Shown here: positions 14,999 to 60,622 of the stretch, in pieces
Layout: the number at the start of each line of letters is the position of its first letter
Numbering within the stretch: position 1 is the first letter of the stretch
Source: an uncultured Aquimarina sp.
GTDB lineage: Bacteria; Bacteroidota; Bacteroidia; Flavobacteriales; Flavobacteriaceae
Reading direction: 5' to 3'
Length of the DNA stretch: 64,000 nucleotides
Assembly: GCA_947493495.1 (NCBI GenBank)
Contig: CANLRN010000004.1
Coordinates: 1 to 64,000 of the forward strand
Translations under genes and position numbers: made by a program
The notes under the pieces: model-generated
The model's database searches: none
Told to the model about the DNA's origin: nothing
What the model saw: the letters and a program-made list of their open reading frames with translations, nothing else

Positions 14999-15161
14999 AT
15001 ACGATTTACGGATGAGAATTTCGTAAAAATAATGGCAAGGATTTTTCGCTAGATTGATGAATCAAATTAAAGAATAGCCATAGCTATTGTTTCATTTTAT
15101 GAAGAAAATATAGTAGAAAAAGAATGTCATTAGATGCGAAATTTTTATTCGTAAATCGTAT
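14999..15161 (-). mobile_element. MITE-like inverted-repeat element, copy 1
   Basis: 163 bp bounded by ATACGATTTACG and CGTAAATCGTAT. The terminal inverted repeats extend over about 25 bp with three mismatches. In inverted orientation it differs from the copy at 44184-44346 at one position and from that at 60460-60622 at two. It contains the central palindrome AATAGC-CATA-GCTATT. No coding capacity. It lies between leuS and the terminator-like hairpin. Confidence 0.85.
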
Positions 15162-15165
15162 GAGT

Positions 15166-15194
15166 AAACCACCACCGTTTTAGATGGTGGTTTT
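15166..15194 (+). terminator. Terminator downstream of leuS
   Basis: AAACCACCA, ten-base loop, TGGTGGTTTT: 9-bp stem plus short T run, 5 bp after the right end of the MITE-like element. Probably the original leuS terminator. Confidence 0.75.
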
Positions 15195-15418
15195 CATAAC
15201 TAACTAAAATTAAACTAATGATAAAAATGCGATTACTAATTTTCTGTGTGTAATTCATAATAATTACAATAAGTTGGTATATCAAAGGGAATAATCCCTT
15301 TTCAATTTATTCATAATTTAACAAAACACAAATGATTTAGAAAACTATTTTTGGAAACATAACTTTTTTTTAGAAACTCATTAAGTGTTCTAAAAAAACA
15401 GAAAGAAATTCTGTAAAA

Positions 15419-15548
15419 TGAACTCCCCCGAAGTAGAGCCATCGGAATATCAAGCGGATTTTTTTAGTTTTATGAAAATCATCCGTTTACAAGCTTTCCT
15501 TTAAAACTTAGAGAAATTCATTAGATTAAAAAAATCTAAATGAGTTCA
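15419..15548. other. Nested hairpin cluster, possible structured RNA or element remnant
   Basis: A closing 7-bp stem TGAACTC (15419-15425) / GAGTTCA (15542-15548) encloses three smaller hairpins: CCGA/TCGG (15428-15445), AAGCGGAT/ATCCGTTT with one mismatch (15452-15488) and TTAGATT/AATCTAA (15521-15539). No reading frame crosses it. It ends about 105 bp before the ald promoter. It could be a structured RNA or the trace of an insertion. Confidence 0.35.
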
Positions 15549-15652
15549 CAATCTACAAAACTATCAAAAGCCTATAGAATCACATAAACCTCTACCTTAT
15601 ATTCATAGTTCATTCCAGAATTACGAATATGTTATTTTTTTAATTAATTTTA

Positions 15653-15681
15653 TTGTTTTATTTCATCAAAAATTATATTTT
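15653..15681 (+). promoter_or_regulatory. Promoter of ald
   Basis: TTG at 15653 and TATATTTT at 15674, a near match to TAnnTTTG, spaced 21 bp apart and 19 bp before the ATG at 15700. Confidence 0.5.
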
Positions 15682-15699
15682 CGACGAAAAATTAAGAAT

Positions 15700-16815
15700 A
15701 TGATAATCGGTATTCCTAAGGAAATCAAGAATAACGAGAATAGAGTGGGTGTCACACCTGCTGGAACGATGGCACTCGTTAGACAAGGCCACACCGTTTT
15801 TATTCAGCAAAATGCTGGTTTTCAGTCTGGTTTTACTGATGAGGAATATGTAGAAGCAGGAGCTAAGATATTACCTACTATAGAAGAGGTATATCATACT
15901 GCGGAGATGATTATTAAGGTTAAAGAGCCTATAGAACCAGAATATAAATTGATTAAAAAGGATCAATTGTTATTCACTTATTTTCATTTTGCATCCAGTG
16001 AAACCCTCACAAAAGCAATGATAGAAAGTGGTTCGGTTTGTATTTCTTACGAAACGGTAGAAGATCCTGATCGCAGTTTGCCATTACTTACTCCAATGAG
16101 TGAGGTGGCAGGACGTATGTCTATCCAACAAGGCGCCAAATATCTAGAAAAACCATTAAAAGGTAAAGGAATTCTTCTAGGTGGTGTACCTGGAGTTGCT
16201 CCAGCTAAAGTATTAATTTTAGGAGGGGGAGTTGTAGGAACACAAGCCGCAAAAATGGCTTCAGGAATGGGTGCAGACGTAACTATCCTAGATATAAGTA
16301 TGAAACGTTTACGCTATCTAGATGATGTGATGCCTGCAAATGTAAATACAGAATATTCTAATGAATATACAATTCGTAGACATATAAAAACTTCGGATTT
16401 AATTATTGGTGGGGTATTAATACCAGGAGCTAAAGCACCAAAACTGATTACTCGAGATATGCTCAAAGATATCTGTCCAGGTACGGTTCTAGTAGATGTC
16501 GCTGTAGATCAGGGAGGATGTTTTGAGACAACTAAGCCAACTACCCATGAAGATCCAGTTTATATCATAGATGATGTAGTACATTATTCTGTAGCTAATA
16601 TGCCAGGAGCTGTACCTTATACATCCACTCTGGCATTAACCAATGTTACTTTGTCATATGCCATACAATTGGCTAATAAAGGGTGGAAAGCTGCTTGTGC
16701 AAGCAATGAACCGCTAAAAAAAGGCTTAAATGTAATTCAGGGAAAGGTAGTATATCCTGCTATTTCAGAAGCATTTAACCTCCCTCTAGAAGATATAAAT
16801 AATTTTTTAAGTTAA
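15700..16815 (+). CDS. ald: Alanine dehydrogenase
   Basis: 371 residues. NAD-dependent interconversion of L-alanine with pyruvate and ammonia. The N-terminus MIIGIPKEIKNNENRVGVTPAG is the family signature, with the substrate-binding Arg and Lys region (IKVKEPI). The Rossmann motif GGGVVGTQAAKMASGMGADV lies at about residues 173-193, and the C-terminal VANMPGAVPYTSTLALTN segment is conserved. Length is standard. Monocistronic, with a promoter and terminator of its own; likely links amino-acid catabolism to central carbon metabolism. Confidence 0.97.
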   Translation: MIIGIPKEIKNNENRVGVTPAGTMALVRQGHTVFIQQNAGFQSGFTDEEYVEAGAKILPTIEEVYHTAEMIIKVKEPIEPEYKLIKKDQLLFTYFHFASSETLTKAMIESGSVCISYETVEDPDRSLPLLTPMSEVAGRMSIQQGAKYLEKPLKGKGILLGGVPGVAPAKVLILGGGVVGTQAAKMASGMGADVTILDISMKRLRYLDDVMPANVNTEYSNEYTIRRHIKTSDLIIGGVLIPGAKAPKLITRDMLKDICPGTVLVDVAVDQGGCFETTKPTTHEDPVYIIDDVVHYSVANMPGAVPYTSTLALTNVTLSYAIQLANKGWKAACASNEPLKKGLNVIQGKVVYPAISEAFNLPLEDINNFLS

Positions 16816-16850
16816 TCGAACTTATTGGCTAATTCAAGTTTATTTAACTG

Positions 16851-16878
16851 AAAACCTCGTCTCTATGGCGGGGTTTTT
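16851..16878 (+). terminator. Terminator after ald
   Basis: AAAACCTCG, loop TCTCTATGG, CGGGGTTTTT: 9-bp stem with one G-T pair, T run, 36 bp after the stop codon. Confidence 0.85.
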
Positions 16879-16967
16879 GCTTTTATTATTGTAATTTAGT
16901 ATTTGTACTCATTATAGTTTGAATTAGATGCAAGCTATATAGATGTGTAACATAAAAACAAAAAAGT

Positions 16968-17669
16968 ATGTTTTCAGGATATATGGGTTATTATGTAATA
17001 GCCGGAATTATAGCATTAGTAAGTGGTTTAGTAAGTTCTCGATTAAAAAGTAAATTTAATCACTATTCTAAATTACATCTCCAGAATGGAATGAGTGGTG
17101 CTGAGATTGCTCAAAAAATGTTAGATGATAATGGAATTAGAGATGTGCAGGTCATATCCACACCAGGAATGCTGACAGATCATTATAATCCCAGAAAAAA
17201 AACGGTTAACCTTAGTGAGGGGGTGTACAATCAGCGGAATGCCGCTGCTGCCGCTGTTGCTGCTCACGAAGTAGGTCACGCTATTCAGCATGCCACTGCA
17301 TACTCTTGGTTAACGATGCGTTCCAAGCTGGTTCCTATGGTAGGTATAGCTTCTAAGATGTCCATGTGGGCAATTATGGGAGGTGTTGCACTAATGGCAA
17401 CTATGAAATTAGGTCAGACAATTGCTTTGATAGGGCTTGCATTATATGCGGTTAGTACATTATTTAGTTTCATCACATTACCTGTAGAGTATGATGCCAG
17501 TAAAAGAGCATTAGTTTGGTTAGAAGATACTAATATGCTCACCGGAGAAGAGCATGCTGGTGCTAAAGATGCACTAAAATGGGCTGCAAGAACCTATGTG
17601 GTAGCAGCTATTGGTTCGTTAGCGACCTTATTATATTTTGCAGTTCAAATTCTAGGAAGAAGAAGATAA
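16968..17669 (+). CDS. Zinc metallopeptidase (YugP-like)
   Basis: 233 residues. An N-terminal membrane helix (about 5-22), the zinc-binding motif HEVGH (H100, E101, H104) and two or three further membrane segments match the neutral zinc metallopeptidase family of which Bacillus YugP is a member. The NPRKKTVNLSEGVYNQRN stretch ahead of the HExxH is a conserved part of the family. Physiological substrate unknown; presumably acts at the inner membrane. Single gene. Confidence 0.9.
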   Translation: MFSGYMGYYVIAGIIALVSGLVSSRLKSKFNHYSKLHLQNGMSGAEIAQKMLDDNGIRDVQVISTPGMLTDHYNPRKKTVNLSEGVYNQRNAAAAAVAAHEVGHAIQHATAYSWLTMRSKLVPMVGIASKMSMWAIMGGVALMATMKLGQTIALIGLALYAVSTLFSFITLPVEYDASKRALVWLEDTNMLTGEEHAGAKDALKWAARTYVVAAIGSLATLLYFAVQILGRRR

Positions 17670-17747
17670 CCGTTTTATACAATATTTCTGTTTTATCGCT
17701 TAAAATTATGTACCTTTTCTCACTAATTACAGATACTAATTAAATTG

Positions 17748-19163
17748 GTGAAGAAAGTAATCATTATCGGTGCTGGGCCTGCTGGTTTAAGCGCTGCTTA
17801 TGAATTAAGTAAAAATGATATCGATGTTGAGGTATTTGAGGCTTCTCCATATATTGGTGGGATGTCACGTAGTTTTGATCTCTGGGATCAAAGGGTAGAT
17901 TTAGGACCCCACCGATTTTTTTCTAAAGAACCAAGAGTCAATAATTTTTTTGATGAAATTATAAAAGATGACTACACACTAGTACATAGACTCACACGTA
18001 TTTACTACAAAAAAAAATTCTTTGATTATCCCCTAAAATTGTGGAATGTTCTAAAGAACCTTAAGTTCATCACAATCATTACTATCTTAATAGATTACGG
18101 GAAACAAAAAATGACGCCCATTAAAAATCCAGATACTTTTGAAAAATGGGTTACCAATAGATTTGGCAAAAAACTATACACTATTTTCTTTAAGTATTAT
18201 ACCGAGAAACTTTGGGGAATTTCTTGCTCTAAAATAGATGCAGACTGGGCTTCACAGAGAATTAAAGGGCTTTCTTTAATGGAAGCTGTTATGAGTGCAT
18301 TAAAAGGCAATAAAGGGAACAACCATAAAACCTTAGTAGATCAATTTGCTTATCCTAAAAATGGAACAGGCTCACTATATGAAAAAGCAGAAGCACTGAT
18401 TATAAATAAAAAAGGAGTCATCCATAAAGAAACCCCAGTTAAAAAAATTATCATAGAAAACAACAGCTGTAAAGGAATCATTACTCAAGATGGAATAGCA
18501 CATTATGCTGATTATGTAATTTCTTCAATGCCCCTTACTTCATTGATTAAAGGGATAGATATCACACCCAAGGATATTTTAGAAGCTGGAGAAAAACTAT
18601 ATTTCAGAAATACGATATTAGTATACTTAGAAATTAATAAAAAAGACTTATTCAAGGACAATTGGATCTATGTCCATTCTCCAGAGGTACGCCACGGTAG
18701 AATAACCAATTTTAGGAACTGGTGCCCTAGCCTGAATAAAGGACACAAAAGTACAATTCTATGTTTGGAGTTTTGGGCATTTGACATAGATGAAATATGG
18801 GTGGCTAAAGATAGTTATCTTACAGATTTGGCTATAAAAGAGCTCAAAACATTACACCTTATTGATGCAAATGAAACGATCCAAAATTCTAAAATTGTAA
18901 GAGTGCCTAAATGCTACCCTGTCTATGAAATAGGATATAAAGAACATCTGAAAAAAATTGAAGGGTATCTAAATAGTATTGACAAGCTTATTCCTATTGG
19001 TCGTTACGGCGCTTTTAAATATAATAATCAAGATCACTCTATATTAATGGGTATTCTAGCTGCGCAAAATATTATAAATACTACAGATATTGATCTCTGG
19101 AGTATTAATACAGATACAGAATATCATGAAGATGGCGAAGTTAAAGATGTTTTGATCCAGTAA
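17748..19163 (+). CDS. FAD-dependent oxidoreductase, UDP-galactopyranose-mutase/protoporphyrinogen-oxidase-like
   Basis: About 471 residues. It begins VKKVIIIGAGPAGLSAAYELSK, the FAD-binding GxGxxG Rossmann fold, followed by the second FAD contact FEASPYIGGMSRSF and the GPHRFF motif seen in enzymes annotated as UDP-galactopyranose mutase-like or amine-oxidase-like. The exact reaction is not determined; the location next to a GT39-like membrane protein suggests surface glycan work. No ATG is available: start is GTG at 17748 or TTG at 17745. The stop codon lies in the first bases of a dispersed repeat (19160-19229). Confidence 0.85.
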   Translation: MKKVIIIGAGPAGLSAAYELSKNDIDVEVFEASPYIGGMSRSFDLWDQRVDLGPHRFFSKEPRVNNFFDEIIKDDYTLVHRLTRIYYKKKFFDYPLKLWNVLKNLKFITIITILIDYGKQKMTPIKNPDTFEKWVTNRFGKKLYTIFFKYYTEKLWGISCSKIDADWASQRIKGLSLMEAVMSALKGNKGNNHKTLVDQFAYPKNGTGSLYEKAEALIINKKGVIHKETPVKKIIIENNSCKGIITQDGIAHYADYVISSMPLTSLIKGIDITPKDILEAGEKLYFRNTILVYLEINKKDLFKDNWIYVHSPEVRHGRITNFRNWCPSLNKGHKSTILCLEFWAFDIDEIWVAKDSYLTDLAIKELKTLHLIDANETIQNSKIVRVPKCYPVYEIGYKEHLKKIEGYLNSIDKLIPIGRYGAFKYNNQDHSILMGILAAQNIINTTDIDLWSINTDTEYHEDGEVKDVLIQ

Positions 19164-19229
19164 ACTACTTGGGAACAAGTCTACCTAGCATCAATTAGAC
19201 AGGCTTAGAGGTATTAGACCCGAGACCCC
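19160..19229 (+). repeat. Dispersed ~70-bp repeat, copy A
   Basis: Shares about 85% of positions with 49909-49979 in the same orientation, including ACAAGTCTACCT, GCATCAAT, AGACAG and CTTAGAGGTATTAGACC. It overlaps the stop codon of the FAD protein and supplies the last codons of the GT39-like gene on the other strand. Origin unknown; may be the end of an old insertion element. Confidence 0.65.
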
Positions 19230-20556
19230 ACTTTTTTTTATCCATATAAAAATTCTTTAGTGTTGCCAATAAATCACTACACCCTAGTACAGAAAAAACT
19301 AGATATGCTGGTAAAACAGGAACAAAAAATCGAGATGCTCCTAATGGTCCTGTTAAAGCAACTACGTACAAAATGAGAAATAAAGTAGTGACTATTACAA
19401 AATTTGTTTTTCTATAATTTTTGATCCAAAACCAAACAAAACCAACTCCTTTTATAAGATTTAGTAACAGAATAACAAAAAATGATAGAACTAAAAATAT
19501 TGGTTGAGATTTCAAAAATTTAAAAGCTCTTTTTAGTCCTCCATTATTTAAATAATGTAAAATCCCTTTTTCTGGATTTTCTAGTTGTATGTTGAAAAAT
19601 TTAAAAAGATCAAACCTGCCGGGATCGATAAACATTCTTAGACAACCTTTTCCATGAAAAATGCCATATCCTATCAGGTCCTGTTTGAGGTATTTGATTG
19701 ACTGATTCCTAATATAATGCTGCCGCTTAGGGTATTCTTGTATTTTAGAGGCCTCAGACAGAACAGAACTGGTTATCGCCAGTGCTTTTTCTGGTCCGTA
19801 TTTATGCTGATGAAAATACTTTAAATTCCATTCTAATAAATTAGAATTCTGCAGGCTAGAAAAATCATAACTCCCCGTCCTATTATAATTCCAATGACAA
19901 TACAATAAGAATACCAGTAAAGGAATCACACTACTTAAGAAACCATATTTTATTTTTGTCTTTCTACAAATTAGTAGTGTTATTATAATATTGGGGATGA
20001 TGAATAGGTAAAAAACAGGTTTGGTTAGAAATAAGAGTATGATAATGAGTTGAAAAAAAATCAAATGCTTCCAAGAAGGGTTTTTGAACAACTTATGTAA
20101 GGTATACAATAAAAGAATAATAAAAAACTGGAGTAATATCTCACTCATAACCAAATTTGTATAAACAAACTGATTGATAGAAGTTCCTATAAAAATGAAA
20201 AACCATAACTGATTTATTTTAAATGAGTTTTCTTCAAAAATTTGCTTAATCCAGAGTAACGAAATTATAGAAAGCAGATTTTGGAACAACAATATTGCAA
20301 TAGTAGATTTTAGAAACCCAGATGTAATGATGATGAATAATGAATATATGGGAGGCCTTCGGGTATAATTACTTTCTTCGATTTGAGTCTGTAAATCTCC
20401 GCAATAAAACTCAAAGGTATTCACTATATTTTCGGCTAACTGATAGTACTCATATGAATCAACAATGAAAAAATCTCCAATGATAATTTTTATAACAAAA
20501 AATAGTAAATGAATACCGATAAGACTAGTGATAAAAATATGGTGCTTAACTTTCAT
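19195..20556 (-). CDS. GT39-like multi-pass membrane glycosyltransferase
   Basis: 453 residues with about ten membrane helices. The first extracytoplasmic loop has DSYEYYQLA (D33, E36), the acidic pair that binds the lipid-linked sugar in the PMT/ArnT superfamily, and then NYTRRPPIYSLFI, the conserved Pro region. Likely transfers a sugar from a polyprenyl-phosphate carrier to a glycan or lipid. Acceptor unknown. The last 11 or so codons lie inside a dispersed repeat, so the natural C-terminus may have been replaced. Last gene behind saccharopine dehydrogenase and Lrp, 6 bp after Lrp. Confidence 0.8.
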   Translation of the reverse strand: MKVKHHIFITSLIGIHLLFFVIKIIIGDFFIVDSYEYYQLAENIVNTFEFYCGDLQTQIEESNYTRRPPIYSLFIIITSGFLKSTIAILLFQNLLSIISLLWIKQIFEENSFKINQLWFFIFIGTSINQFVYTNLVMSEILLQFFIILLLYTLHKLFKNPSWKHLIFFQLIIILLFLTKPVFYLFIIPNIIITLLICRKTKIKYGFLSSVIPLLVFLLYCHWNYNRTGSYDFSSLQNSNLLEWNLKYFHQHKYGPEKALAITSSVLSEASKIQEYPKRQHYIRNQSIKYLKQDLIGYGIFHGKGCLRMFIDPGRFDLFKFFNIQLENPEKGILHYLNNGGLKRAFKFLKSQPIFLVLSFFVILLLNLIKGVGFVWFWIKNYRKTNFVIVTTLFLILYVVALTGPLGASRFFVPVLPAYLVFSVLGCSDLLATLKNFYMDKKKWGLGSNTSKPV

Positions 20557-20562
20557 CAGCTT

Positions 20563-21033
20563 TTATATTCTAATCTGCCTGCTTATTTGTTGATCCAACG
20601 AAATAAAAGTCTCTGTTCTGGAAACTCCTTCAATTGCCTGAATTTCTTTATTCAATAAATTCATTAAGTGTTCATTATCTTTACAAAGAATTTTGATAAA
20701 GATAGACCAATTCCCCGTAGTATAATGACATTCAATCACTTCGGGGATATTTTCTAATTGTTTAACTGCCTTAGGATTACTCACTGCTTTATCCAAGTAG
20801 ACACCTACAAACGCCATGGTTTTATAGCCTAATACTTTTGGATCTATAATAAATTTAGAACCAGCAATTAAACCAGAGGCTTCTAATTTTCTTAATCGTT
20901 GGTGAATCGCTGCTCCCGAAATCCCAATTTTACGTGCTATTTTTAGAATAGGTCTCCGTGCATCTTCCATTAGATTGCGAAGAATCTCCTTATCGATACC
21001 ATCTATTTTTAAATTGCTGTTTTGCACTTTCAT
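20563..21033 (-). CDS. Lrp/AsnC family transcriptional regulator
   Basis: 156 residues: N-terminal helix-turn-helix (about 12-60, with IDGIDKEILRNLMEDARRPILKIARKIGISGAAIHQRLRKLE) and a C-terminal RAM/AsnC ligand-binding domain. These regulators sense amino acids and often control neighbouring catabolic genes. It lies 69 bp behind the saccharopine dehydrogenase family gene on the same strand, suggesting that it regulates that gene and perhaps others in amino-acid metabolism. Confidence 0.93.
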   Translation of the reverse strand: MKVQNSNLKIDGIDKEILRNLMEDARRPILKIARKIGISGAAIHQRLRKLEASGLIAGSKFIIDPKVLGYKTMAFVGVYLDKAVSNPKAVKQLENIPEVIECHYTTGNWSIFIKILCKDNEHLMNLLNKEIQAIEGVSRTETFISLDQQISRQIRI

Positions 21034-21102
21034 AGAAAAATAAGTAACAATTAGAAAGTAAATGTACCAATTATGATTTAAATCTAAAGGCTATAAACTA
21101 TA

Positions 21103-22473
21103 TTATCCTTTTACACCATCAAGATTGTATCCCAAATACTCGCGTTCTTTTTCTTTAAAAATAATACCATATGTCTCTAATTCTTCCAGGATAGGCGTAT
21201 ATATTTCTTTCTGAATCGGAATTTGTACTCCTGGTGTTGTGATATCCTTATTCAGAATTTTTAGAGTGGCAATAGCTACTGGTAATCCTACTGTTTTTGC
21301 CATAGCTGTGTATTTCTGATTTTGCCCAACACATACCATAGTGGCGTCAATTTGCTTACGTTCTCCTTCAAGCTCATATCCAAATTTATGATACATTACA
21401 ATCATATCTTTATCATCCTCATTTAACGTCCATTTATCCATTAATATTTTCTGAAGAACCATAGCTGGAGTGGCATTAGGGATACCGATTTTTTTATTGG
21501 GATTAAAAATATCTAGCTCTACTAGTTTATCCCATATACTATCGTCTTGATCAATTTTTAGGTAATGACGTAGTTTTAACTCTACAGAATCTGATGGAGA
21601 ATATGCCAAAAATGAATTGGTAAAATCGCGATAACTCATATCTTCTGAATTTGTTAAGGTATAGTCATCTGCTGTCATCCCTAATTGTACAAATATATTC
21701 CAGGCTTTAGAAAATCCAACTCTTCTTATGGTTCCTCTGTATAGTGTTAAAACATCATCTAGGCCATAAATCTTTTGATATTTTAATGAGTTTCTATTGG
21801 CATATGCCTCAAAACGTCCGTAGTTTTCTACTTCCAGGAATTCTGTTCTCCTAAATAATTTGTGGTACGGAATATACTTATAGGCCCCTTCCTGAAGAAA
21901 TTCTGCAGCACTTCCTTGACCAGCGACAACTACATTTCGGGGATTCCAGGTAAATTTATAATTCCAAAGATTGGTATCACTTTCGGGAGCTACCAATCCG
22001 CCAGTAAATGACTCGAACAATAGCATTTTGCCTCCTTGATCACGTATACGATCTATGACGTGCATGGCACTCATATGATCAATTCCAGGGTCTACACCAA
22101 TCTCGTTCATAAAAACGAGCTTCTTTTTTTTAACCTCTCCATCTAATGCCTGCATTTCTGGGCTTACATAAGATGCAGTAACCATAGATTTATTAAATTG
22201 TAAGCAATCTCTAGCTACTTCGATATGAAATCTAGCAGGTAGCATCGATACTACAATATCCGCATCTTTTATTGCCTCTTCTCTTGCAGATTTATTAAAA
22301 ATATCTAATGCAATAGCGGTTGTATTACTATGATTCGCCGCTAACTCTTTAGCCTGATCAATGGAGATATCTCCAATCGTAATGTGCAAGTTTTCTGAAA
22401 CAGATTTATCCTGAAAATATGTAACTAAAACTGCAGTGGATTTACCTGCTCCAATAACCAATATTTTTCGCAT
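21103..22473 (-). CDS. Saccharopine dehydrogenase family protein
   Basis: 456 residues. N-terminal Rossmann fold with MRKILVIGAGKSTAVLVTYF and a DIVVSMLPARFH segment typical of the LYS9/saccharopine dehydrogenase C-terminal (glutamate-forming) family; GVDPGIDHMSAMHVID and the catalytic-domain segments GLVAPESDTNLWNYKFTWNPRNVV follow. In lysine degradation the enzyme splits saccharopine into glutamate and aminoadipate semialdehyde. A glutaryl-CoA-dehydrogenase-like enzyme is encoded at 48596-49774, in line with lysine catabolism, but the two are not linked. Divergent from DUF423. Confidence 0.88.
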   Translation of the reverse strand: MRKILVIGAGKSTAVLVTYFQDKSVSENLHITIGDISIDQAKELAANHSNTTAIALDIFNKSAREEAIKDADIVVSMLPARFHIEVARDCLQFNKSMVTASYVSPEMQALDGEVKKKKLVFMNEIGVDPGIDHMSAMHVIDRIRDQGGKMLLFESFTGGLVAPESDTNLWNYKFTWNPRNVVVAGQGSAAEFLQEGAYKYIPYHKLFRRTEFLEVENYGRFEAYANRNSLKYQKIYGLDDVLTLYRGTIRRVGFSKAWNIFVQLGMTADDYTLTNSEDMSYRDFTNSFLAYSPSDSVELKLRHYLKIDQDDSIWDKLVELDIFNPNKKIGIPNATPAMVLQKILMDKWTLNEDDKDMIVMYHKFGYELEGERKQIDATMVCVGQNQKYTAMAKTVGLPVAIATLKILNKDITTPGVQIPIQKEIYTPILEELETYGIIFKEKEREYLGYNLDGVKG

Positions 22474-22623
22474 ACCTAATATTTTTTAATAACTTTGATA
22501 CGAATGTAATAAATACCTTAAACGTAACTTCTCGATTATAGTGTATTAATTATAAATTCATAAAAAATGTGTCTAAAAATATTGGTTTTTATAAAAACAT
22601 AATCAATTATCGCCTAAAAAAGA

Positions 22624-23007
22624 ATGAATAAAACAATTTTGATTACTGGAACGGTTGCAGCATTATTAGCAGTAGTATTGGGAGCTTTTGGAGCGCACGG
22701 ATTAGAGAAGCTAGTAGATGCAGGTGGTATAGATTCTTTTGTAACAGGTGTTCGATATCAGATGTATCATGCAATTGTTTGCTTGGTACTGGGTACTATG
22801 ACACTATTATCGGAAACGTCTAAAAAACGGATTTTTTATTTTTTCCTGAGCGGAATGATTCTTTTTTCTGGATCTATTTATCTTTTGGTTATTGACGAAG
22901 TTTTGGGGATTTCTCTCTCTGCTATTGGTTTTATAACCCCTTTGGGAGGTTTGTTGTTAATTTTAGGATGGATTTTCTTTTTGATTGCACTTATCAGGGT
23001 GAAATAA
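22624..23007 (+). CDS. DUF423 membrane protein
   Basis: 127 residues, four membrane segments, with the family pattern GAFGAHGLEKL near the N-terminus and YHAIVCLVLG after it. Members (YwdK/YgdD) are small inner-membrane proteins of unknown role. Single gene; start ATG at 22624. Confidence 0.88.
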   Translation: MNKTILITGTVAALLAVVLGAFGAHGLEKLVDAGGIDSFVTGVRYQMYHAIVCLVLGTMTLLSETSKKRIFYFFLSGMILFSGSIYLLVIDEVLGISLSAIGFITPLGGLLLILGWIFFLIALIRVK

Positions 23008-24769: not shown

Positions 24770-24829
24770 TATCGTAAATGCCTTATTCCAGTAAATTCAT
24801 AATAATTACAAGAGTCATACAAAAAATAC

Positions 24830-44104: not shown

Positions 44105-44153
44105 TAAATAACATGTCCAGCCAAATCTTTATTTTGGCTGGACATGTTATTTA
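44105..44153. terminator. Perfect 21-bp stem-loop after tetR
   Basis: Perfect inverted repeat of 21 bp with a 7-nt loop (arms 44105-44125 and 44133-44153; core CATGTCCAGCCAAA). No long T run on either side. Lies between convergent genes, so it is probably a bidirectional terminator. Confidence 0.7.
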
Positions 44154-44183
44154 TGTTCGTTAATTCAGAAGATAAATGATATA

Positions 44184-44346
44184 ATACGATTTACGAATAA
44201 AAATTTCGCATCTAATGACATTCTTTTTCTACTATATTTTCTTCATAAAATGAAACAATAGCTATGGCTATTCTTTAATTTGATTCATCAATCTAGCGAA
44301 AAATTCTTGCCATTATTTTTACGAAATTCTCATCCGTAAATCGTAT
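44184..44346 (+). mobile_element. MITE-like inverted-repeat element, copy 2
   Basis: 163 bp from ATACGATTTACG to CGTAAATCGTAT, no coding capacity. It has the central hairpin AATAGC-TATG-GCTATT at 44257-44272. It differs from the copy at 60460 at three positions and from the inverted copy at 14999 at one. Located between the convergent tetR and the 44350 gene, 3 bp from the latter's stop codon. Confidence 0.85.
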
Positions 44347-44349
44347 AAT

Positions 44350-49774: not shown

Positions 49775-49790
49775 TTGATTGATTTTTATT

Positions 49791-50690: not shown

Positions 50691-50722
50691 AAAAAGGAGA
50701 ATTATATAATTCTCCTTTTTTT
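50691..50722. terminator. Bidirectional terminator
   Basis: AAAAAGGAGAATTA / TAATTCTCCTTTTT, a near-perfect palindrome with A tract and T tract, between convergent genes 50303-50614 and 50727-51437. Confidence 0.92.
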
Positions 50723-50726
50723 AATT

Positions 50727-51437: not shown

Positions 51438-51639
51438 GAAGGCTATAGTTTTGAATGACGTTGATAATTTGATTTTAAATTACAAGTTTGCTCAATAAAT
51501 TGTTGATTTTTAAATCAAAAACATCCAGTCACAATCTTTTGTTTTAAAGAAGGGAGAGTCCAGAGAGATGTTTAATACCACTTCTGATGTATAAAATCAA
51601 CATTAATGTAAACTAGAATAGGCTTGAATATTACCTATA

Positions 51640-52164: not shown

Positions 52165-52182
52165 CCTTATCTTAGTCGTAAA

Positions 52183-52731: not shown

Positions 52732-53087
52732 AATAAATTAATTCTTGGGTGCTCGACCCTGTTTATAATTAAGTTTGCAAATGTAATCATTTTTAGGAAA
52801 AACACATCGATAAAAAATTGTTTTATTCTTTTTTAAAATGAACCCTAATTTTATCGTTTTAAAGGCTTGTGGCTACAAAAATTGTTCATCCTTTAAAGAA
52901 AATTAAACCCTACATATTATATACAAATATTGCTATTTTGTGTATTTCATCGTTATTTTAAATCATTTATCTACAAAAATTGAATATTTTGTATCAAAAA
53001 AATTGCTTAATAACTTTTTTCATCTTATGTTTGCCTTAAGTAATTAAATTATGGTTTTTCCATATTTAATTTTTAAACCCCAAAGAG
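52732..53087. other. Divergent intergenic region rpsP / DUF6252-like lipoprotein
   Basis: 356 bp, AT-rich, holding the rpsP -7 box. No clear promoter for the 53088 gene and no reading frame of note. Confidence 0.6.
52778..52785 (-). promoter_or_regulatory. Bacteroidetes -7 box for rpsP-rimM
   Basis: CAAATGTA, TACATTTG on the minus strand: exact TAnnTTTG, 46 bp before the ATG. Confidence 0.65.
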
Positions 53088-53942
53088 ATGATTAAAAAAA
53101 TTACCCCACTTATGGCAGTATTCTGCCTGATTTTTAATTCTTGTACTACTGACATTGAGATCAACTCACCTGCATTACAAGCTACAATAGATGGAAAACT
53201 ATTCAGGCCTGATATAAAAAAGGCAATCTTACATGATGATGGAACACTTGTTATCATGGGAATAGCAAACTCTGAAATAATTAGTTTTACTACCTCATCA
53301 CTAAATGAAGGAACCTATAAACTATCACAACAAGCGATTAGTCACGCAAGTTTTGAGGATAATAGTGCTAATTCTACATTCATTTCTAAGGAGAACATAA
53401 GTATTGGAGAGGTTAGAATTACAGAAATATACAATAATGAGATTACTGGAAATTTCTTTTTTACAAATTTAAAAAGTGATGATGGCAAATCTGTAAGTTT
53501 TCAGAATGGATGGTTTTATAGATTGCCTGTAGAGAATTACGAAGCTCCAAAAGATGAAGAAAATAATACTATTAATCCTTGCCTACTTAATGCTTCTCTT
53601 ACCGCTAGCATTGATGGTGTAGAAATGATTACTGATGATCATCAAGCAGCTGAGTTCGGAGTACGACCTCCATACCCATCTATTAGAATTACTGCTAGTG
53701 ATGATGCTCAAGATATAGAAATTGTATTCTCTATTGATGCTACACCAGGTCAATATTCACTGTCTGGTTCTGGAGAGTATAGTGCCTCTTATGCATTAAA
53801 TAATGAAAAAACAGCTGCCGCCTCTGGTATATTAACTATCGTAGAACACAATCAAGATACGAAATGTATTAGCGGATCTTTCGAATTTACAACTCAATCA
53901 GGAGTAAAAGTGACTGGCGGAAATTTTGATTTTGGATATTAA
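53088..53942 (+). CDS. Two-domain lipoprotein, DUF6252-like
   Basis: 284 residues. Signal peptide with lipobox ending in Cys19 (FNSCTT). Two similar beta domains in tandem: LQATIDGKLFRPDIKK...SFTTSSLNEGTYKLS...GNFFFT and LTASIDGVEMITDDHQA...FSIDATPGQYSLSG...GSFEFT. This ATIDG ... PGTY ... GxFxFT plan is that of DUF6252, a surface lipoprotein family in Flavobacteriia with unknown function. Strong terminator follows. Confidence 0.85.
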   Translation: MIKKITPLMAVFCLIFNSCTTDIEINSPALQATIDGKLFRPDIKKAILHDDGTLVIMGIANSEIISFTTSSLNEGTYKLSQQAISHASFEDNSANSTFISKENISIGEVRITEIYNNEITGNFFFTNLKSDDGKSVSFQNGWFYRLPVENYEAPKDEENNTINPCLLNASLTASIDGVEMITDDHQAAEFGVRPPYPSIRITASDDAQDIEIVFSIDATPGQYSLSGSGEYSASYALNNEKTAAASGILTIVEHNQDTKCISGSFEFTTQSGVKVTGGNFDFGY

Positions 53943-53965
53943 TTACATCTCGATTATATGGTTAG

Positions 53966-54000
53966 AAAAGCGTTTATCAGGTATTTGATAAACGCTTTTT
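53966..54000 (+). terminator. Terminator after the DUF6252-like lipoprotein
   Basis: AAAAGCGTTTATCA, loop GGTATTT, GATAAACGCTTTTT: 13-14 bp stem with T run. Confidence 0.92.
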
Positions 54001-54053
54001 ATTTGGTTAATAATTCTGAATAACTTTATTAGATACATCCTACAGCTTTTAGT

Positions 54054-54061
54054 TATTTTTG
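54054..54061 (+). promoter_or_regulatory. Bacteroidetes -7 box for dnaE
   Basis: TATTTTTG (TAnnTTTG) 49 bp before the dnaE ATG. No clear -33 element. Confidence 0.45.
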
Positions 54062-54110
54062 AAAATCAGTTTTTTATCTAGAATTGATTCTTCTCTAAAA
54101 CAAAAAATGT

Positions 54111-57100
54111 ATGTATTTAATCTTTGATACCGAAACTACGGGATTACCAAAACGTTGGGATGCACCTATTAGTGACACCGACAATTGGCCCAGATGTATC
54201 CAGATTGCCTGGCAATTACATGATGAAATGGGTAATTGCATAGAACATCAAGATTATTTGGTAAAACCAGAAGGGTTTAATATTCCATATGATGCAGAAA
54301 AGATTCACGGTATTTCTACAGAATTAGCAGAACAAGATGGAATCGCTCTTTCTGAAGTCTTAGAGAAATTTAATATTGCTTTATCTAAAACTAAATTTGT
54401 TGTTGGACAAAATGTAGGCTTTGACGTTTCTATTATGGGGGCTGAATTTTACCGGCTTGATGTTCAAAATAAACTACAAGAATTACCCGTTCTAGATACC
54501 TGTACAGAAACCACAGCTAGTTTATGCCAAATTCCTGGAGGTCGTGGAGGAAAATTTAAATTACCTACGCTAACAGAACTTCATGAATACTTATTCGGCA
54601 CTGCTTTTGGAGAAGCGCATAATGCTACTGCCGATGTAGAAGCTACTACTCGATGTTTTCTTGAATTAATTCGCAAACAAGCTTTTACTAAAGAAGAACT
54701 TGATGTAGCGACAGATTATTTTGAAAACTTTAAAGAAAAAAATCCATCACCTATTCCATTAATAGGTCTTAAACATATCAATCTTAAAAAAGCTTCTCAA
54801 AAAATAATAGAAGCTCAAAATAAAAATCCAGATTTATCCCAACAAGAGATAAAAGACAATATAGCAGTGCTTGACACTGCTAATTTTGCTCATTTACACA
54901 ATCATACGCAATTCTCGGTATTACAATCCACAACAAGTATTCTTGATTTAGTAAAAGAGACTGCCAAACACAATATGACGGCTGTTGCCATGACCGATCA
55001 TGCTAATATGATGGGAGCTTTTCATTTTGTACAAGCGATTACCAATCATAATAAGAGTGTAAAAACAGCCAATGAAGAAGCCATCCAAAACGGAGAAGTA
55101 CCTTCGGGAACAGAAATAAAACCAATTGTAGGCTGCGAATTTTTTGTTTGTGAAAATCATAAGGACAAGTCTAGAAAAGACAATGGATATCAAGTCGTAT
55201 TACTTGCTAAAAACAAAAATGGGTATCATAATCTAGCAAAAATGTCTTCTATTGGTTTTGTAGATGGGTTCTATTATCTGCCTCGTATTGATAAAGAGGT
55301 TATCAAACAATATAAAGAAGATATCATTGTGCTTACTGGGAATCTCTATGGTGAAGTTCCAAGTAAAGTGCTTAATATAGGAGAAAAACAAGCAGAAGAA
55401 GCATTGCTTTGGTGGCATCAAGAATTTGGGGACGATTTATATGTCGAAATTATGCGTCACAATCAGGAAGATGAAAATCGAGTAAATCAAGTCTTGATCA
55501 GTTTCTCTAAAAAACATAACATAAAAACCGTTGCCACTAACAACACCTACTACTGTGAGAAAAAAGATGCTAATGCTCACGATATCTTATTGTGCGTAAA
55601 AGACGGAGAAAAGCAAGCAACACCAATCGGTCGCGGAAGAGGATATCGATATGGTCTGCCCAATCAAGAATACTATTTTAAGTCATCCGAAGAGATGAAA
55701 AATCTTTTCAAAGATCTTCCTGAAGCTATTATCAATATTCAGGAGATTGTAGACAAGATAGAGCCTTTCGTGCTGGCAAGAGATGTATTGTTACCTGCTT
55801 TTGATATTCCTAAAGAATTTCAAGCAGAAGAAGATACTATCGATGGTGGTAAAAGAGGAGAAAATGCGTATCTAAGACATATCACCTATGAAGGTGCAAA
55901 AATACGATATGGAGAAATAACTCCAGAGATTGATGAGCGTCTTGATTTTGAATTAAAAGTAATTGAAAACACAGGATATCCAGGATATTTCTTGATCGTA
56001 GAAGATTTTATTAGAGCTGCCAGAGATATGGGAGTCTCGGTAGGCCCTGGTCGAGGATCTGCTGCGGGATCTGCTGTAGCTTACTGTTTGTGGATCACCA
56101 ATTTAGATCCAATTAAGTACGATCTGCTTTTTGAGCGTTTTTTGAATCCTGATCGTGTAAGCATGCCCGATATAGATATTGATTTTGATGATGAAGGACG
56201 AGGACGTGTTATGGAGTATGTGATTGAAAAATACGGAGCTAATCAGGTGGCACAGATCATTACCTATGGCACCATGGCTGCAAAATCTTCTATAAGAGAT
56301 ACCGCTCGTGTATTAGATCTACCTCTAGGGGATGCAGATCGAATTGCCAAGCTCATTCCTAATATGTCTAAACTAGGAAAGATATTTGGTGTAGATGAAG
56401 CAGTACTAAAGAAAAAATTTAGAAGTGACGAATTAGAAAAAGTAAATGAATTACTCAATATTGCAGAAGGTAGTGATCTCGAAGCAGAAACGCTGAACCA
56501 GGCAAGAGTATTAGAAGGTTCTGTAAGAAATACCGGGATTCATGCCTGTGGTGTGATCATTACTCCAGATGATATTACCAAATTCGTTCCTGTTGCTTTG
56601 GCCAAAGATTCGGATATGTACTGTACACAATTTGACAACTCTGTTGTAGAAAGTGCAGGTCTGCTTAAGATGGATTTCTTGGGATTAAAAACGCTAACGC
56701 TAATCAAAGACACTGTAAAAATTGTTAAAGCAAAACATGGAATAGAGCTGGATCCAGAAAATTTCCCGCTGGATGATGAAGAAACCTATGCGTTATTCCA
56801 GAAAGGAGAAACTGTTGGGGTGTTCCAATATGAATCCCCTGGAATGCAAAAGTATATGAAGGAACTAAAACCTACTGTTTTTGCAGATCTTATCGCAATG
56901 AATGCATTGTATCGCCCTGGCCCTTTAGAATATATTCCTAGTTTTATTAATCGAAAACACGGTACAGAAGAAATTATATACGACTTAGAAGCCTGTGAAG
57001 AATACTTGCAAGAAACCTATGGTATCACGGTATATCAGGAGCAAGTTATGTTGCTATCTCAAAAATTGGCTGATTTTACCAAAGGTGAAGCCGATGTATT

Positions 57101-58490
57101 ACGTAAAGCCATGGGTAAAAAACAAAAGGCGGTTCTAGATAAGATGAAACCCAAGTTTATCAAACAAGCTGTTGCAAAAGGTCATGCCGAAAATAAGCTT
57201 GAAAAAATATGGAAAGATTGGGAGGCTTTTGCAGCCTATGCTTTTAATAAATCTCACTCTACTTGTTATGCTTGGATTGCCTACCAAACTGCGTATCTAA
57301 AAGCGCATTATCCAGCTGAATATATGGCTGCTGTTCTATCTAATAACATGAATGATATCAAGCAAGTTACCTTCTTTATGGAAGAATGTAAACGCATGAA
57401 ACTAGATGTTTTAGGCCCTGATGTTAATGAATCCTACAGGAAATTCTCTGTAAATAAAGATGGTGCTGTTCGATTTGGTATGGGGGCTATAAAAGGAGTG
57501 GGTACAGGAGCCGTTGCCACGATCGTAGAAAACAGAAAAAAAGACGGGCCTTATAAATCCATTTTTGATATGGCTAAGCGTATTGATTTACGTGCAGCTA
57601 ATAAAAAAGCCTTTGAAAGCTTAGCTTTAGCTGGTGGTTTTGATTCTTTTGTAGAAACACACAGAGGACAATATTTTCATCAAGATGGAGATGGAATTAC
57701 CTTTCTCGAAAAAGCCACAAAATATGGAGCTAAGTACCAAGAAAATGAAAATTCTTCTCAGGTAAGCTTATTTGGTGAGTCTAGTGATGTACAAATCCCT
57801 GAACCTATTGTTCCTCCCTGTGAAGAATGGGGAACTATGGAAAAACTTGCCCGAGAAAAAGAAGTAGTAGGTATCTATCTGTCTGGACATCCACTAGATG
57901 ATTTTAAATATGAAATGAAATATTTTTGTAATGGAACACTTCATAATTTTGCAGATCTAAACAGTAATTTAAATCGCGAAATCTCTTTTGGTGGCGTTAT
58001 CACATCAGTAGAACATCGTACTTCTAAAAACGGAAAAGGGTGGGCAACATTTACGATTGAAGATTATAACACTGCTCACGAGTTTAGAATTTTTGGAGAA
58101 GATTATCTAAAACACCGCCCTTTTCTGGTACAAAGCACCTTCGTATATGCAAAAGCTTTTATAAAAGAGGGCTGGGTAAATCGAGATACTGGCAAAAAAG
58201 GAGATCCAAGAATACAATTCAATAGTTTTCAATTGCTACACGATGTGATAGAAACCTATGCCCGCAAATTAACGATACAATTAGATATCAATGAACTTTC
58301 GGATCGCAGAATAGATAATTTAAAAAAATTGTTGACCGAACATACTGGAAATCATACCCTAAATTTTGTAATCTATGAAATGGCAGAACAATTAAAATTA
58401 CATATGCCAAGTAGAAAACAAAAGGTGCAGATATCTCCAGAGTTACTTATTGCCCTAGAAAATGATGCTGTTTATTATAAATTGAATTAA
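54111..58490 (+). CDS. dnaE: DNA polymerase III alpha subunit with fused N-terminal exonuclease
   Basis: 1459 residues, about 300 more than E. coli DnaE because of an N-terminal DnaQ-like DEDDh exonuclease (residues 1-190: FDTETTGLP, IHGISTE, GQNVGFD, AHNATADVEAT). Then a PHP domain (FAHLHNHTQFSVL from about residue 262), the polymerase domain with GPGRGSAAGSAVAYCL and the catalytic Asp residues of PDIDIDFDDEGR, a thumb/tau-binding region and an OB fold near the C-terminus (ISFGGVITSVEHRTSKNGKGWATFTIED). The replicative chromosome polymerase; proofreading is in cis, as is usual in Bacteroidetes. ATG 54111 starts directly at the exonuclease motif. Confidence 0.98.
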   Translation: MYLIFDTETTGLPKRWDAPISDTDNWPRCIQIAWQLHDEMGNCIEHQDYLVKPEGFNIPYDAEKIHGISTELAEQDGIALSEVLEKFNIALSKTKFVVGQNVGFDVSIMGAEFYRLDVQNKLQELPVLDTCTETTASLCQIPGGRGGKFKLPTLTELHEYLFGTAFGEAHNATADVEATTRCFLELIRKQAFTKEELDVATDYFENFKEKNPSPIPLIGLKHINLKKASQKIIEAQNKNPDLSQQEIKDNIAVLDTANFAHLHNHTQFSVLQSTTSILDLVKETAKHNMTAVAMTDHANMMGAFHFVQAITNHNKSVKTANEEAIQNGEVPSGTEIKPIVGCEFFVCENHKDKSRKDNGYQVVLLAKNKNGYHNLAKMSSIGFVDGFYYLPRIDKEVIKQYKEDIIVLTGNLYGEVPSKVLNIGEKQAEEALLWWHQEFGDDLYVEIMRHNQEDENRVNQVLISFSKKHNIKTVATNNTYYCEKKDANAHDILLCVKDGEKQATPIGRGRGYRYGLPNQEYYFKSSEEMKNLFKDLPEAIINIQEIVDKIEPFVLARDVLLPAFDIPKEFQAEEDTIDGGKRGENAYLRHITYEGAKIRYGEITPEIDERLDFELKVIENTGYPGYFLIVEDFIRAARDMGVSVGPGRGSAAGSAVAYCLWITNLDPIKYDLLFERFLNPDRVSMPDIDIDFDDEGRGRVMEYVIEKYGANQVAQIITYGTMAAKSSIRDTARVLDLPLGDADRIAKLIPNMSKLGKIFGVDEAVLKKKFRSDELEKVNELLNIAEGSDLEAETLNQARVLEGSVRNTGIHACGVIITPDDITKFVPVALAKDSDMYCTQFDNSVVESAGLLKMDFLGLKTLTLIKDTVKIVKAKHGIELDPENFPLDDEETYALFQKGETVGVFQYESPGMQKYMKELKPTVFADLIAMNALYRPGPLEYIPSFINRKHGTEEIIYDLEACEEYLQETYGITVYQEQVMLLSQKLADFTKGEADVLRKAMGKKQKAVLDKMKPKFIKQAVAKGHAENKLEKIWKDWEAFAAYAFNKSHSTCYAWIAYQTAYLKAHYPAEYMAAVLSNNMNDIKQVTFFMEECKRMKLDVLGPDVNESYRKFSVNKDGAVRFGMGAIKGVGTGAVATIVENRKKDGPYKSIFDMAKRIDLRAANKKAFESLALAGGFDSFVETHRGQYFHQDGDGITFLEKATKYGAKYQENENSSQVSLFGESSDVQIPEPIVPPCEEWGTMEKLAREKEVVGIYLSGHPLDDFKYEMKYFCNGTLHNFADLNSNLNREISFGGVITSVEHRTSKNGKGWATFTIEDYNTAHEFRIFGEDYLKHRPFLVQSTFVYAKAFIKEGWVNRDTGKKGDPRIQFNSFQLLHDVIETYARKLTIQLDINELSDRRIDNLKKLLTEHTGNHTLNFVIYEMAEQLKLHMPSRKQKVQISPELLIALENDAVYYKLN

Positions 58491-58904
58491 TTTTTCCCCA
58501 AAATTACACACTACAGGTTAACAAAAAATAGAGATCACCACTTAATTTTAACATTTACAGTTTTCAAACTTTTGTTCAATATGTTAGCTATCTAACATCT
58601 GTAGGTTGTTTTTTAATGTCAAAAACTCAATTATTTTGTTAAAAAATTGTGAATAATAAAGTTTAACAATTTTTATTATTTTGTTAAAAAATCACTTAAA
58701 AAACTTTAAATCAGCTTGTTAAAAGTTTATTAAATCCTTAAACAAGTATATTATTTAATTTTTAAAAAAAACTGTGTAAGTATAAAATATTGCTGTCGTC
58801 TCAATTTATATCAGATCTTAAAACCTTTGATACTTTAAAAACGATTGGCCGATTGTTTTAATTTTTTTAGAATTTTTTAGAATATAACATTAAAAACACA
58901 AAAA
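58491..58904. other. Very AT-rich intergenic region after dnaE
   Basis: 414 bp of poly-A/T-rich sequence with repeated TTTTGTTAAAAAAT units (around 58631 and 58680). No open frame, no clear terminator. It may hold the promoter of the 58905 gene, but no exact TAnnTTTG with good spacing is seen. Confidence 0.55.
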
Positions 58905-60287
58905 ATGAAAAATTTAAAATTAACAATCTTAAGTATATTTATTACTTCCGCATTTATCGCTTGTAATAATGATGAAGCTTTCACACCCGCTCCCGAAGAA
59001 CAACTAGTAACTGACGAAATAGCAGAAGATGAACTTGAAAGAGAAGCACAATCCAAAGGCTTTTTTCAATCGTTTAGAGCTTTAAAAGAAGCTAAAGTCC
59101 TATTAAAAAGTATTCGTAGAGATGGAGGAACTCCATATAATGTATTCAATCCTGCACTAAGATTTACTAAGCAACAAAACGTTTTTTTACCAAGTGTTTT
59201 AGGTATTGATTTTAGAATAGACAGATCTGTAGTTCCTGCGGGACCCACAGCAAGATTTCCTATGTTTCAAGGTATAGAAACTCTACCTGATGGAAACAAA
59301 AGAAAAGGGTATTATGTGATCACTGAAGCGTCAGATAAATTTATGGCAAAAAAATTAGGAGTTATCTTTTCTCCTAGAATGGCTGAATCAGTAGGATCTG
59401 GAGGCGACCAAAATGCATATTTCAATCGTCAAGGAAGATTAGTTTTTGAAGGATCAGTAGATTTTTCTCCAAAAAGATCTTTAGTTACTGGACCAGCAGA
59501 TGGATTGTTATTTGGTTTCCCACCTGCAGAAGCTAATCCTGGAGCCATTGCAGATGCCAATTGGTCTTCGTATGTTGTATTACCTAGCGGTGTAGTAATT
59601 AATGCGCAATTAGTAGCTAATAATACAGGTATCCACGATAGAATTCCAAACCCAAATGGAAACAGTATTGGAGATCAAGATGATTTAAACAATCCTAATC
59701 TAGCTATTAATCAAGCTTCTGTTGTAATGCAATTATTAGATGGATGGCATGATGAGAAACCTTATTACTTCCACATTGTTACCGACACATCTGATCCAGG
59801 GCCAGCAACGATCGAATTAGGAGTTTTTGCTCCCAGATTAGCAAATTTACCAACATTTGGATTATTTCCAGGGGGTTCTATGTTACCTTTTAGCCCAACA
59901 GCAAATGGTAGAACTACAGATACAGATGGTTTTGGAGTACAAGGATTGAATACTGCTTCTTTAAGTGATCAACAAGTACAAGATCCAACAAATACTTTTC
60001 CGATTGATCCTAGTGATGTGAGATATGCACCGATGTGGGATGCACACGTGACAGAATTTACTATTCCTGAGTCTGATCGCCCGATATTAAGAAGTTTTGA
60101 TCAGGTAAATCAACTTTTAAGAGAAGGTGTTTTAATTCCTTTTAGAGGAAATGCAAACCCAAGTCCATTGGCTAATTCATTATCTGATTTACTAACTGCT
60201 ACTGGAGCAATTATTAACTGTCCAGTAATCACACAACCTGATGCTAGTGTGATTGGCACTCAGATTGGATCGCCGACTAATAATTAA
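58905..60287 (+). CDS. Lipoprotein of unknown function
   Basis: 460 residues. Signal peptide with lipobox FIAC (Cys20), a short acidic linker (EEQLVTDEIAEDELERE) and a single large domain of about 400 residues, rich in Pro, Gly and Asn, that I cannot assign. Recurrent features are FNPALRFTKQQNVFLPSVLGIDFRID, QNAYFNRQGRLVFEGSVDFSPKR and APMWDAHVTEFTIPE. Probably anchored to the outer membrane. Monocistronic, followed by a terminator and MITE copy 3. Confidence 0.8.
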   Translation: MKNLKLTILSIFITSAFIACNNDEAFTPAPEEQLVTDEIAEDELEREAQSKGFFQSFRALKEAKVLLKSIRRDGGTPYNVFNPALRFTKQQNVFLPSVLGIDFRIDRSVVPAGPTARFPMFQGIETLPDGNKRKGYYVITEASDKFMAKKLGVIFSPRMAESVGSGGDQNAYFNRQGRLVFEGSVDFSPKRSLVTGPADGLLFGFPPAEANPGAIADANWSSYVVLPSGVVINAQLVANNTGIHDRIPNPNGNSIGDQDDLNNPNLAINQASVVMQLLDGWHDEKPYYFHIVTDTSDPGPATIELGVFAPRLANLPTFGLFPGGSMLPFSPTANGRTTDTDGFGVQGLNTASLSDQQVQDPTNTFPIDPSDVRYAPMWDAHVTEFTIPESDRPILRSFDQVNQLLREGVLIPFRGNANPSPLANSLSDLLTATGAIINCPVITQPDASVIGTQIGSPTNN

Positions 60288-60387
60288 TATGAAGAAAAGC
60301 TGCCTAATACTAATTTCAATTGATAAGAATGATACTAAAATTTATCTCTCTTAAAACCTTTTAGGCAGTTCCTTTCTGTTTTTATCT

Positions 60388-60422
60388 AAAAACCTGGTTG
60401 TGTTATGCTTCCAGGTTTTTTT
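60388..60422 (+). terminator. Terminator after the 58905 lipoprotein
   Basis: AAAAACCTGG, 13-nt loop, CCAGGTTTTTTT: strong stem with T run, 100 bp after the stop codon. A second inverted repeat, GCTGCCTAA / TTAGGCAG, lies between. Confidence 0.88.
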
Positions 60423-60459
60423 AGTTCTTCAGTTCTTGTAATTCAATAGCAGTTATGTT

Positions 60460-60622
60460 ATACGATTTACGAATAAAAATTTCGCATCTAATGACATTCT
60501 TTTTCTACTATATTTTCTTCATAAAATGAAACAATAGCTATGGCTATTCTTTAATTTGATTCATCAATCTAGCGAAAAATCCTTACCATTCTTTTTACGA
60601 AATTCTCATCCGTAAATCGTAT
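60460..60622 (+). mobile_element. MITE-like inverted-repeat element, copy 3
   Basis: 163 bp bounded by ATACGATTTACG / CGTAAATCGTAT in the same orientation as copy 2; three substitutions relative to it. Central hairpin retained. Lies between convergent genes. Confidence 0.85.

Follow-up and report, generated by a model that had tools for sequence, protein, structure and literature searches.

What are the three nearly identical elements of 163 bp that punctuate a 64,000-nt stretch of DNA from an uncultured Aquimarina sp. (GenBank assembly GCA_947493495.1, contig CANLRN010000004.1, positions 1–64,000; hereafter the window), and why does one of their strands fold so much better than the other? 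The host is a draft genome of 5.02 Mb in 333 contigs. Copy 1 (14999–15161) lies on the + strand, used below for the best-folding strand of the element, and copies 2 (44184–44346) and 3 (60460–60622) lie on the − strand. All three are exactly 163 bp long, as a first-pass annotation had reported, with the ends ATACGATTTACG and CGTAAATCGTAT and a central AATAGC..GCTATT hairpin. They differ by one (1 versus 2), two (1 versus 3) and three bases (2 versus 3), and copy 1 is inverted relative to the others, also as described. We find that the element is a miniature inverted-repeat transposable element (MITE), and we consider it probable that this 161-bp MITE at TNA sites owes its movement to an IS5/IS1031-like DDE transposase acting in trans and is selected for a full-length hairpin on one strand.

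The annotation had put the uniformity of the copies down to recent movement and had named an absence of further copies as evidence against mobility. Further copies are plentiful: the loci fetched from the host genome hold at least 52 that reach both ends, and window copy 3, which lies outside that set, makes 53. The best 40 of 177 candidates were scored, and all 40 match over the full length at 98–100%; the genome contains the exact 12-mer end 125 times and its reversed control not at all. Twelve of the 52 copies are identical to copy 1, and their median identity is 98.8% (lowest 77.3%, for an internally deleted copy). A further 18 matches in the set and nine more loci are partial. Several of these stop at contig ends, indicating that short-read assembly breaks inside the element, and the element is indeed found at several contig ends of the draft genome.

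Every one of the 52 copies has a T two bases before and an A two bases after the 163-bp unit. The two flanking triplets match as a TNA target duplication in 50 of them (26 TTA, 21 TAA, two TCA, one TGA), counting the matches that reach both ends (52 of 70 in the set) and excluding the nine partial loci; copy 3, outside the set, fits too. The two misfits are reciprocal (L025, TAA/TTA; L026, TTA/TAA), a pattern that a single exchange between two copies, or a misassembly, would produce. In a second genome, G019, the duplications match in 36 of 40 pairs, with four misfits. The matching flanking bases of the window copies (G/G, A/A and T/T), previously regarded as possibly fortuitous, are thus the N of TNA, and the unit that moves is the inner 161 bp (15000–15160, 44185–44345 and 60461–60621). 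By the rule drawn from the whole-genome set and the unfilled sites described below, the sequence gives duplications of TGA for copy 1 (14997–14999 and 15161–15163), TAA for copy 2 (44182–44184 and 44346–44348) and TTA for copy 3 (60458–60460 and 60622–60624).

The comparison of filled and empty sites that had been proposed succeeds between paralogous loci. L001 and L015 represent a single site, seen twice, whose flanks are joined directly in L116; the flanks of L010 are likewise joined in L144 and L002, and each time exactly one TNA is left. The corresponding check against relatives, in which a sequence fixed at the same site would speak against mobility, gave a partial answer: between leuS and alaDH, the site of copy 1, the element is missing from three named Aquimarina relatives, but their spacer has diverged and contains an extra open reading frame (ORF), and a clean unfilled orthologous site was not obtained there. 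By eye, this extra small ORF of the relatives (L031, L032 and L033) stands at the place of copy 1. The element encodes no protein and is intergenic, in agreement with the first description; no ORF of at least 80 amino acids, the shortest listed, overlaps any window copy. Many near-identical copies, TNA duplications, unfilled sites, the lack of genes and the inverted ends together support its assignment as a MITE. An autonomous partner is usual for a MITE but is not required for the name. Carriage of the element by phages or plasmids was looked for and none was found. Two window-type elements (L134:1–202 and L149:1–144) are split at position 73, at a TAA, by another repeat starting ACCCGC, a nested insertion, and a piece of the element (L221:2353–2409) lies inside a gene that by eye resembles an IS66 transposase.

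The second property of the element is its fold. In copy 1, an outer stem of 27 pairs is formed by the terminal inverted repeat (arms 14999–15025 and 15135–15161, + strand; the inverted arms measure 28 nt and are 86% complementary), and the centre is an apical hairpin, AATAGCCATAGCTATT (15073–15088, + strand), which can still be recognised as (G)CATAGCCNTAGCTACG in relatives belonging to other genera. As RNA, copy 1 forms an end-to-end fold of −56.7 kcal/mol on the + strand (z −10.0) and one of −30.2 kcal/mol on the other (z −4.6). We aligned 24 copies, taken by plain DNA search from 14 genomes and without one row identical to another (L151), and used this alignment as the basis of a covariance model, which scores copy 1 at 164.6 bits on the + strand and 62.1 bits on the − strand. 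The consensus of the alignment folds at −40.5 kcal/mol on the + strand versus −1.3 kcal/mol on the other, and 93.9% of its cells are paired. The outer 9 nt are invariant or at least 90% conserved. Both sides have changed in 22 of 57 pairs (shuffled mean 16.0), and there are 117 compensatory cells, versus a mean of 42.7 after shuffling and no more than 25 after sliding of the partner. The annotation had also called for folding and a search for compensatory change, and its alternative of a conserved structured RNA is borne out to this extent: the fold is conserved and one-stranded, as a second property of a MITE and not as a rival to it.

With the model, the reach of the element becomes apparent. 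The nearest named LeuS relatives of the host are Aquimarina species (83–90%), and our set for this genus comprises 66 genomes. A DNA search (E up to 0.001) finds relatives of the element in 29 of these, the host included, some as weak partial matches, and the covariance model in 49, again with the host; across the family, the model finds relatives in 74 of 299 Flavobacteriaceae genomes and 64 of 236 genera, own included. At this E limit unrelated palindromes can enter, and the best E is 1e-9 or weaker in eight of the 74 family genomes and three of the 49 genus genomes. Copy numbers from these searches are lower bounds, because the best 12 (DNA, genus), 44 (model, genus) or nine (model, family) matches at most were scored per genome; from end counts we estimate about 148 copies in G053 (295 ends), 42 in G019 and 30 in G002. 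Well-populated genomes of the genus mostly carry their own near-uniform version, and the distribution is patchy, consisting largely of genome-specific bursts.

We examined 40 relatives more closely: 11 belong to the genus itself, and the other 29 are spread over 24 further genera. Their median pairwise identity is only about 64%, and many relatives have the ends ATACCANTT in place of ATACGATTTAC and still match model positions 1 to 163. Their lengths are 160 (two), 161 (10), 162 (23) and 163 bp (five), as read from model matches, which favour full length. A perfect TNA duplication is kept in 21 of the 40. An apparently older subfamily with the ends ATACGATTTGTGATTA (L145:1227–1388, L191:1335–1496 and L151:2052–2213) is near-identical in G000 and G026.

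The + strand folds more stably in 23 of the 24 distinct aligned copies (exception L229) and in 39 of the 40 other relatives (exception L003). To see this asymmetry in the pairs themselves, we counted wobbles in the outer 27 mirror pairs, with the orientation fixed by the inner core alone as a guard against circularity; no element was flipped. The ratio of G.U to A.C is 89:9 in the 24 aligned copies and 115:19 in the 40 relatives, and still 62:13 in the 24 elements below 75% mutual identity. More G.U than A.C is found in 21 aligned copies versus two with the reverse, and in 36 of the relatives versus two. A constraint on the double strand, or copying between the arms, treats both strands alike, whereas the G.U excess is one-stranded. 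This pattern makes it likely that the folded strand is selected, such that one strand would be kept foldable into a single full-length hairpin.

Remnants of about 35 bp with fused ends occur at four loci of the host genome and one of G003 (L118, L136, L139, L215 and L299), and 28-bp remnants with flanking TNA in G002 (L287, L293, L294 and L295). These are likely palindrome deletions, which may have arisen by slippage between short repeats at the base of the long hairpin. Longer variants in G002 (L300:1261–1530, L301:851–1060 and L288) either have an altered centre or show an assembly gap in the middle of the hairpin.

Two other palindromic MITE families with TNA duplications are present in these genomes. 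Family III is 169 bp long with the ends ACCCGCTTTATGCAAT (L010:1274–1442, L023:2141–2309, L214:924–1092 and L013:1844–2010 in the host genome). It has no blastn similarity to the window element, and one of its copies scores 33.8 bits with our model, whereas the 40 relatives score 75 bits and more. Family IV is 155 bp long (L181:944–1098, G026) and L181 is not among the model matches listed. We had taken the two families as a contrast without strand preference (4:7), but the copies had not been oriented alike. Once oriented, the same strand of family III folds better in eight of eight copies (host genome, G002 and G019), by 8.6 to 19.8 kcal/mol, with an outer-stem G.U:A.C of 19:8, a weaker excess than in the window element; the contrast is thus lost and a parallel gained.

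Both families point to a possible mode of movement. In G026, the family IV MITE shares its first 15–18 bases with an 884-bp IS5-family insertion sequence (IS; L187:1138–2021, NF033580), of which nine copies in G031 and one in G026 are flanked by TTA or TAA duplications; another DDE_Tnp_1 IS in G026 has a TTA duplication. The family III end agrees in 14 of 16 bases with the left end of an IS1380-family IS of the host genome (contig C130, L179), whose transposase is broken and which is also flanked by TAA. From these pairings, small TNA palindromes seem to be moved by DDE transposases in trans. TNA duplications are described for IS of the IS1031 group (PMC12016507), and we infer a mobiliser of this kind for the window element: the element has inserted at TNA with a 3-bp duplication, and an IS5/IS1031-like DDE transposase would act on it in trans.

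The search for such an enzyme covered DDE_Tnp_1 and DUF4096 in five MITE-bearing genomes, IS5 in 66 genomes and DDE_Tnp_4 in 11; we viewed the DDE_Tnp_1 loci for 30 of 47 and two later ones, all five DUF4096, all 30 IS5-protein and all six DDE_Tnp_4 places. The IS5 and DDE_Tnp_4 places show different ends or no ends at all. The ends seen are GAGTATGTTTA and GAGCATGTTTA for the IS5 family and GGGCATCTCTA for another DDE_Tnp_1 IS, and none equals TACGATTTACG. Since the element shares its ends with no IS5-family IS seen, we do not file it as a member of the IS5/IS1031 group. Several candidate partners were rejected: L216/L220, which resembled an IS bearing the end, hold only a 44-bp fragment beside an IS, the element end in L199 lies just outside an IS4-family IS, and single ends in G055, G003 and G002 are, apart from L284, halves, deletion derivatives or decayed pieces. 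The earlier proposal of recent movement by a transposase elsewhere therefore stands for the movement, on the strength of the copies, TNA duplications and unfilled sites, and not for its agent: neither a transposase nor a full-length element with the same ends was found by these four approaches, which did not target the families IS1380, IS3, IS110, IS256, IS630, IS66 and Y1 as such.

Could the hairpin instead be a domesticated regulatory RNA or a bidirectional terminator kept for host genes? The window copies lie at 3′ ends of genes, copy 1 about 127 bp past leuS and ahead of alaDH, both genes on the same strand, and copies 2 and 3 between convergent ORFs. We examined the placement of 53 copies and dropped two without a neighbour on one side. 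Of the remaining 51, 26 lie between convergent, 17 between tandem and eight between divergent ORFs. By comparison, 26% of intergenic bases belong to convergent spacers in a background of 12.95 kb, which is small and based on crude ORF calls (binomial P 1.4e-4). This enrichment and the strong hairpin favour a role for the host, although avoidance of promoters would explain the placement as well. Against such a role, in tandem settings the element runs along the direction of the genes in seven cases and opposed to it in 10, it has unfilled paralogous sites, and it occurs in patchy, largely genome-specific bursts. The transcription stop that the annotation had also entertained is not upheld, as no U tract is visible by eye and copy 1 contains no terminator-like site, the only one found nearby lying outside the element. 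Nor does any Rfam 15 family match above its gathering score; Flavo-1 reaches 24.2 bits (gathering 42), beside the element of L318 and not in it. A function for host genes is thus highly improbable. Because there is no orientation preference towards tandem genes, the hairpin would matter to the movement of the element itself or to its tolerance by the host, and not to any one neighbouring gene. Just before copy 2, a perfect hairpin with 21-bp arms (44105–44153) is a possible terminator of the upstream gene.

Several observations weigh against a selected hairpin on a MITE moved by an IS5/IS1031-like transposase. The wobble excess is partly inherited through shared ancestry, and the 29 elements from other genera were picked by a model that favours G.U over A.C as well as full length. 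Variation within the host genome, counted in the 41 of 52 copies that are exactly 163 bp, comprises 34 distinct substitutions, of which 12 break pairs versus 16.9 expected (P about 0.01) and 10 keep pairs versus 9.4 expected, which is no excess. The constraint on single copies is therefore weak, a better fit to selection on the copies that move. The preference for one strand is not unique to the window element, since family III has it, and a single family IV copy shows none (−47.8 versus −46.6 kcal/mol; G.U:A.C 0:2). The lack of orientation relative to tandem genes does not favour an RNA function at the level of the host, no autonomous partner was met beside the transposase genes viewed, and the match of family III to an IS1380-family end means that our assignment of the mobiliser to IS5 may be wrong.

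Some of these points would be accommodated by a plain MITE whose palindrome is a by-product of inverted ends and arm-to-arm copying, and whose wobble asymmetry is inherited or caused by a mutation bias on one strand. Near-palindromes are also seen in the other TNA MITEs of the genus, the family IV copy lacks a strand preference, single copies are weakly constrained and G.U is common to most members at some columns (column 13, 20 of 24 aligned copies). Template switching between arms can, moreover, produce double changes. Nevertheless, arm-to-arm copying would give Watson–Crick pairs on both strands rather than G.U on a single one, the 40 diverse elements have G.U in 21 of 27 columns and A.C in 11, the length is held at 160–163 bp, and the unrelated family III shows the same preference. 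We therefore regard a plain MITE as unlikely.

If the folded strand is selected, it could act as RNA or as single-stranded DNA. The selected form would most likely be RNA: read-through of neighbouring genes would produce a transcript whose long hairpin is harmless or stabilising at 3′ ends. The less likely runner-up is that the strand folds as single-stranded DNA during excision, replication or uptake, and that a transposase or the host acts on the folded form. A one-strand constraint without preference for gene orientation, and its recurrence in the unrelated family III, fit selection at the movement step, and G.T is better tolerated than A.C in DNA. On the other hand, staggered cutting by DDE enzymes leaves duplications such as TNA, and single-strand transposases of the IS200/IS605 kind are not known to. 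No preference for a replication strand was seen either, since same-contig copies agree in orientation in eight of 18 pairs in G000 and 23 of 41 in G019. Taken together, folded single-stranded DNA as the selected form seems rather unlikely to us, and we retain the RNA form of the selected hairpin as our preferred reading.

How does the element compare with known systems? MITEs of the IS5 family (IS1031 group), including the 155-bp MITE of G026, are likewise short, gene-free and nearly palindromic, with inverted ends, TNA duplications and lengths of about 155–163 bp. The window element differs in its ends, in that no autonomous IS with its ends was found, and in its strong one-strand preference, which is absent in the measured 155-bp copy. 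Family III resembles it in the TNA duplication, the near palindrome and the strand preference, and differs in its IS1380-like ends, its weaker wobble excess, its low model score and its unrelated sequence. REP/BIME elements, mobilised by RAYT transposases of the Y1 kind, are also palindromic and intergenic with a strand-specific hairpin, but these are units of 20–40 bp that are not known to make a target duplication, unlike a 161-bp element with a TNA duplication. ERIC/IRU, Correia/NEMIS, RUP and YPAL are likewise small mobile repeats of intergenic regions, folding into long stem-loops, and NEMIS has been proposed to act through RNase III on transcripts (PMC2229807, as far as its text was available). 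Compared by their descriptions there, ERIC, NEMIS and RUP occur in other hosts and carry a terminal TA motif, whereas the window element targets TNA with a variable N; YPAL, of about 168 bp, has duplications of 3–26 bp and inner repeats, unlike the window element. The eukaryotic PIF/Harbinger and related PHIS transposons make TWA or TNA duplications with transposases related to bacterial IS5, and selection for a one-strand fold is not mentioned in the available part of that source (PMC4482050).

We found no description of the element in the open-licence PubMed Central literature or in Rfam 15, and the accessible text of a survey of stem-loop repeat families (PMC2267715) has no words beginning flavobacter or bacteroid. 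We class it as a MITE of a familiar kind whose structural constraint, kept across many genera, is undescribed. MITEs tend to be viewed as passive remains of insertion sequences, constrained at their ends alone, and a length and fold maintained over many genera while the sequence drifts is an unusual constraint for them.

We can put forward, as a tentative proposal, a wider picture in which Flavobacteriaceae harbour a superfamily of selfish hairpins: a length-locked transposon of about 161 nt, with ordinary cut-and-paste duplication, would spread only while one strand folds end to end, its movement or survival would pass through the folded RNA or DNA strand, and an unrelated MITE family would have converged on the same fold. 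The wobble asymmetry provides a simple test, using sequence only, for a life spent partly as a folded single strand, and two unrelated families pass it. With its many genera and several end types, the element represents a natural series for asking what role a long hairpin plays in a small transposon.

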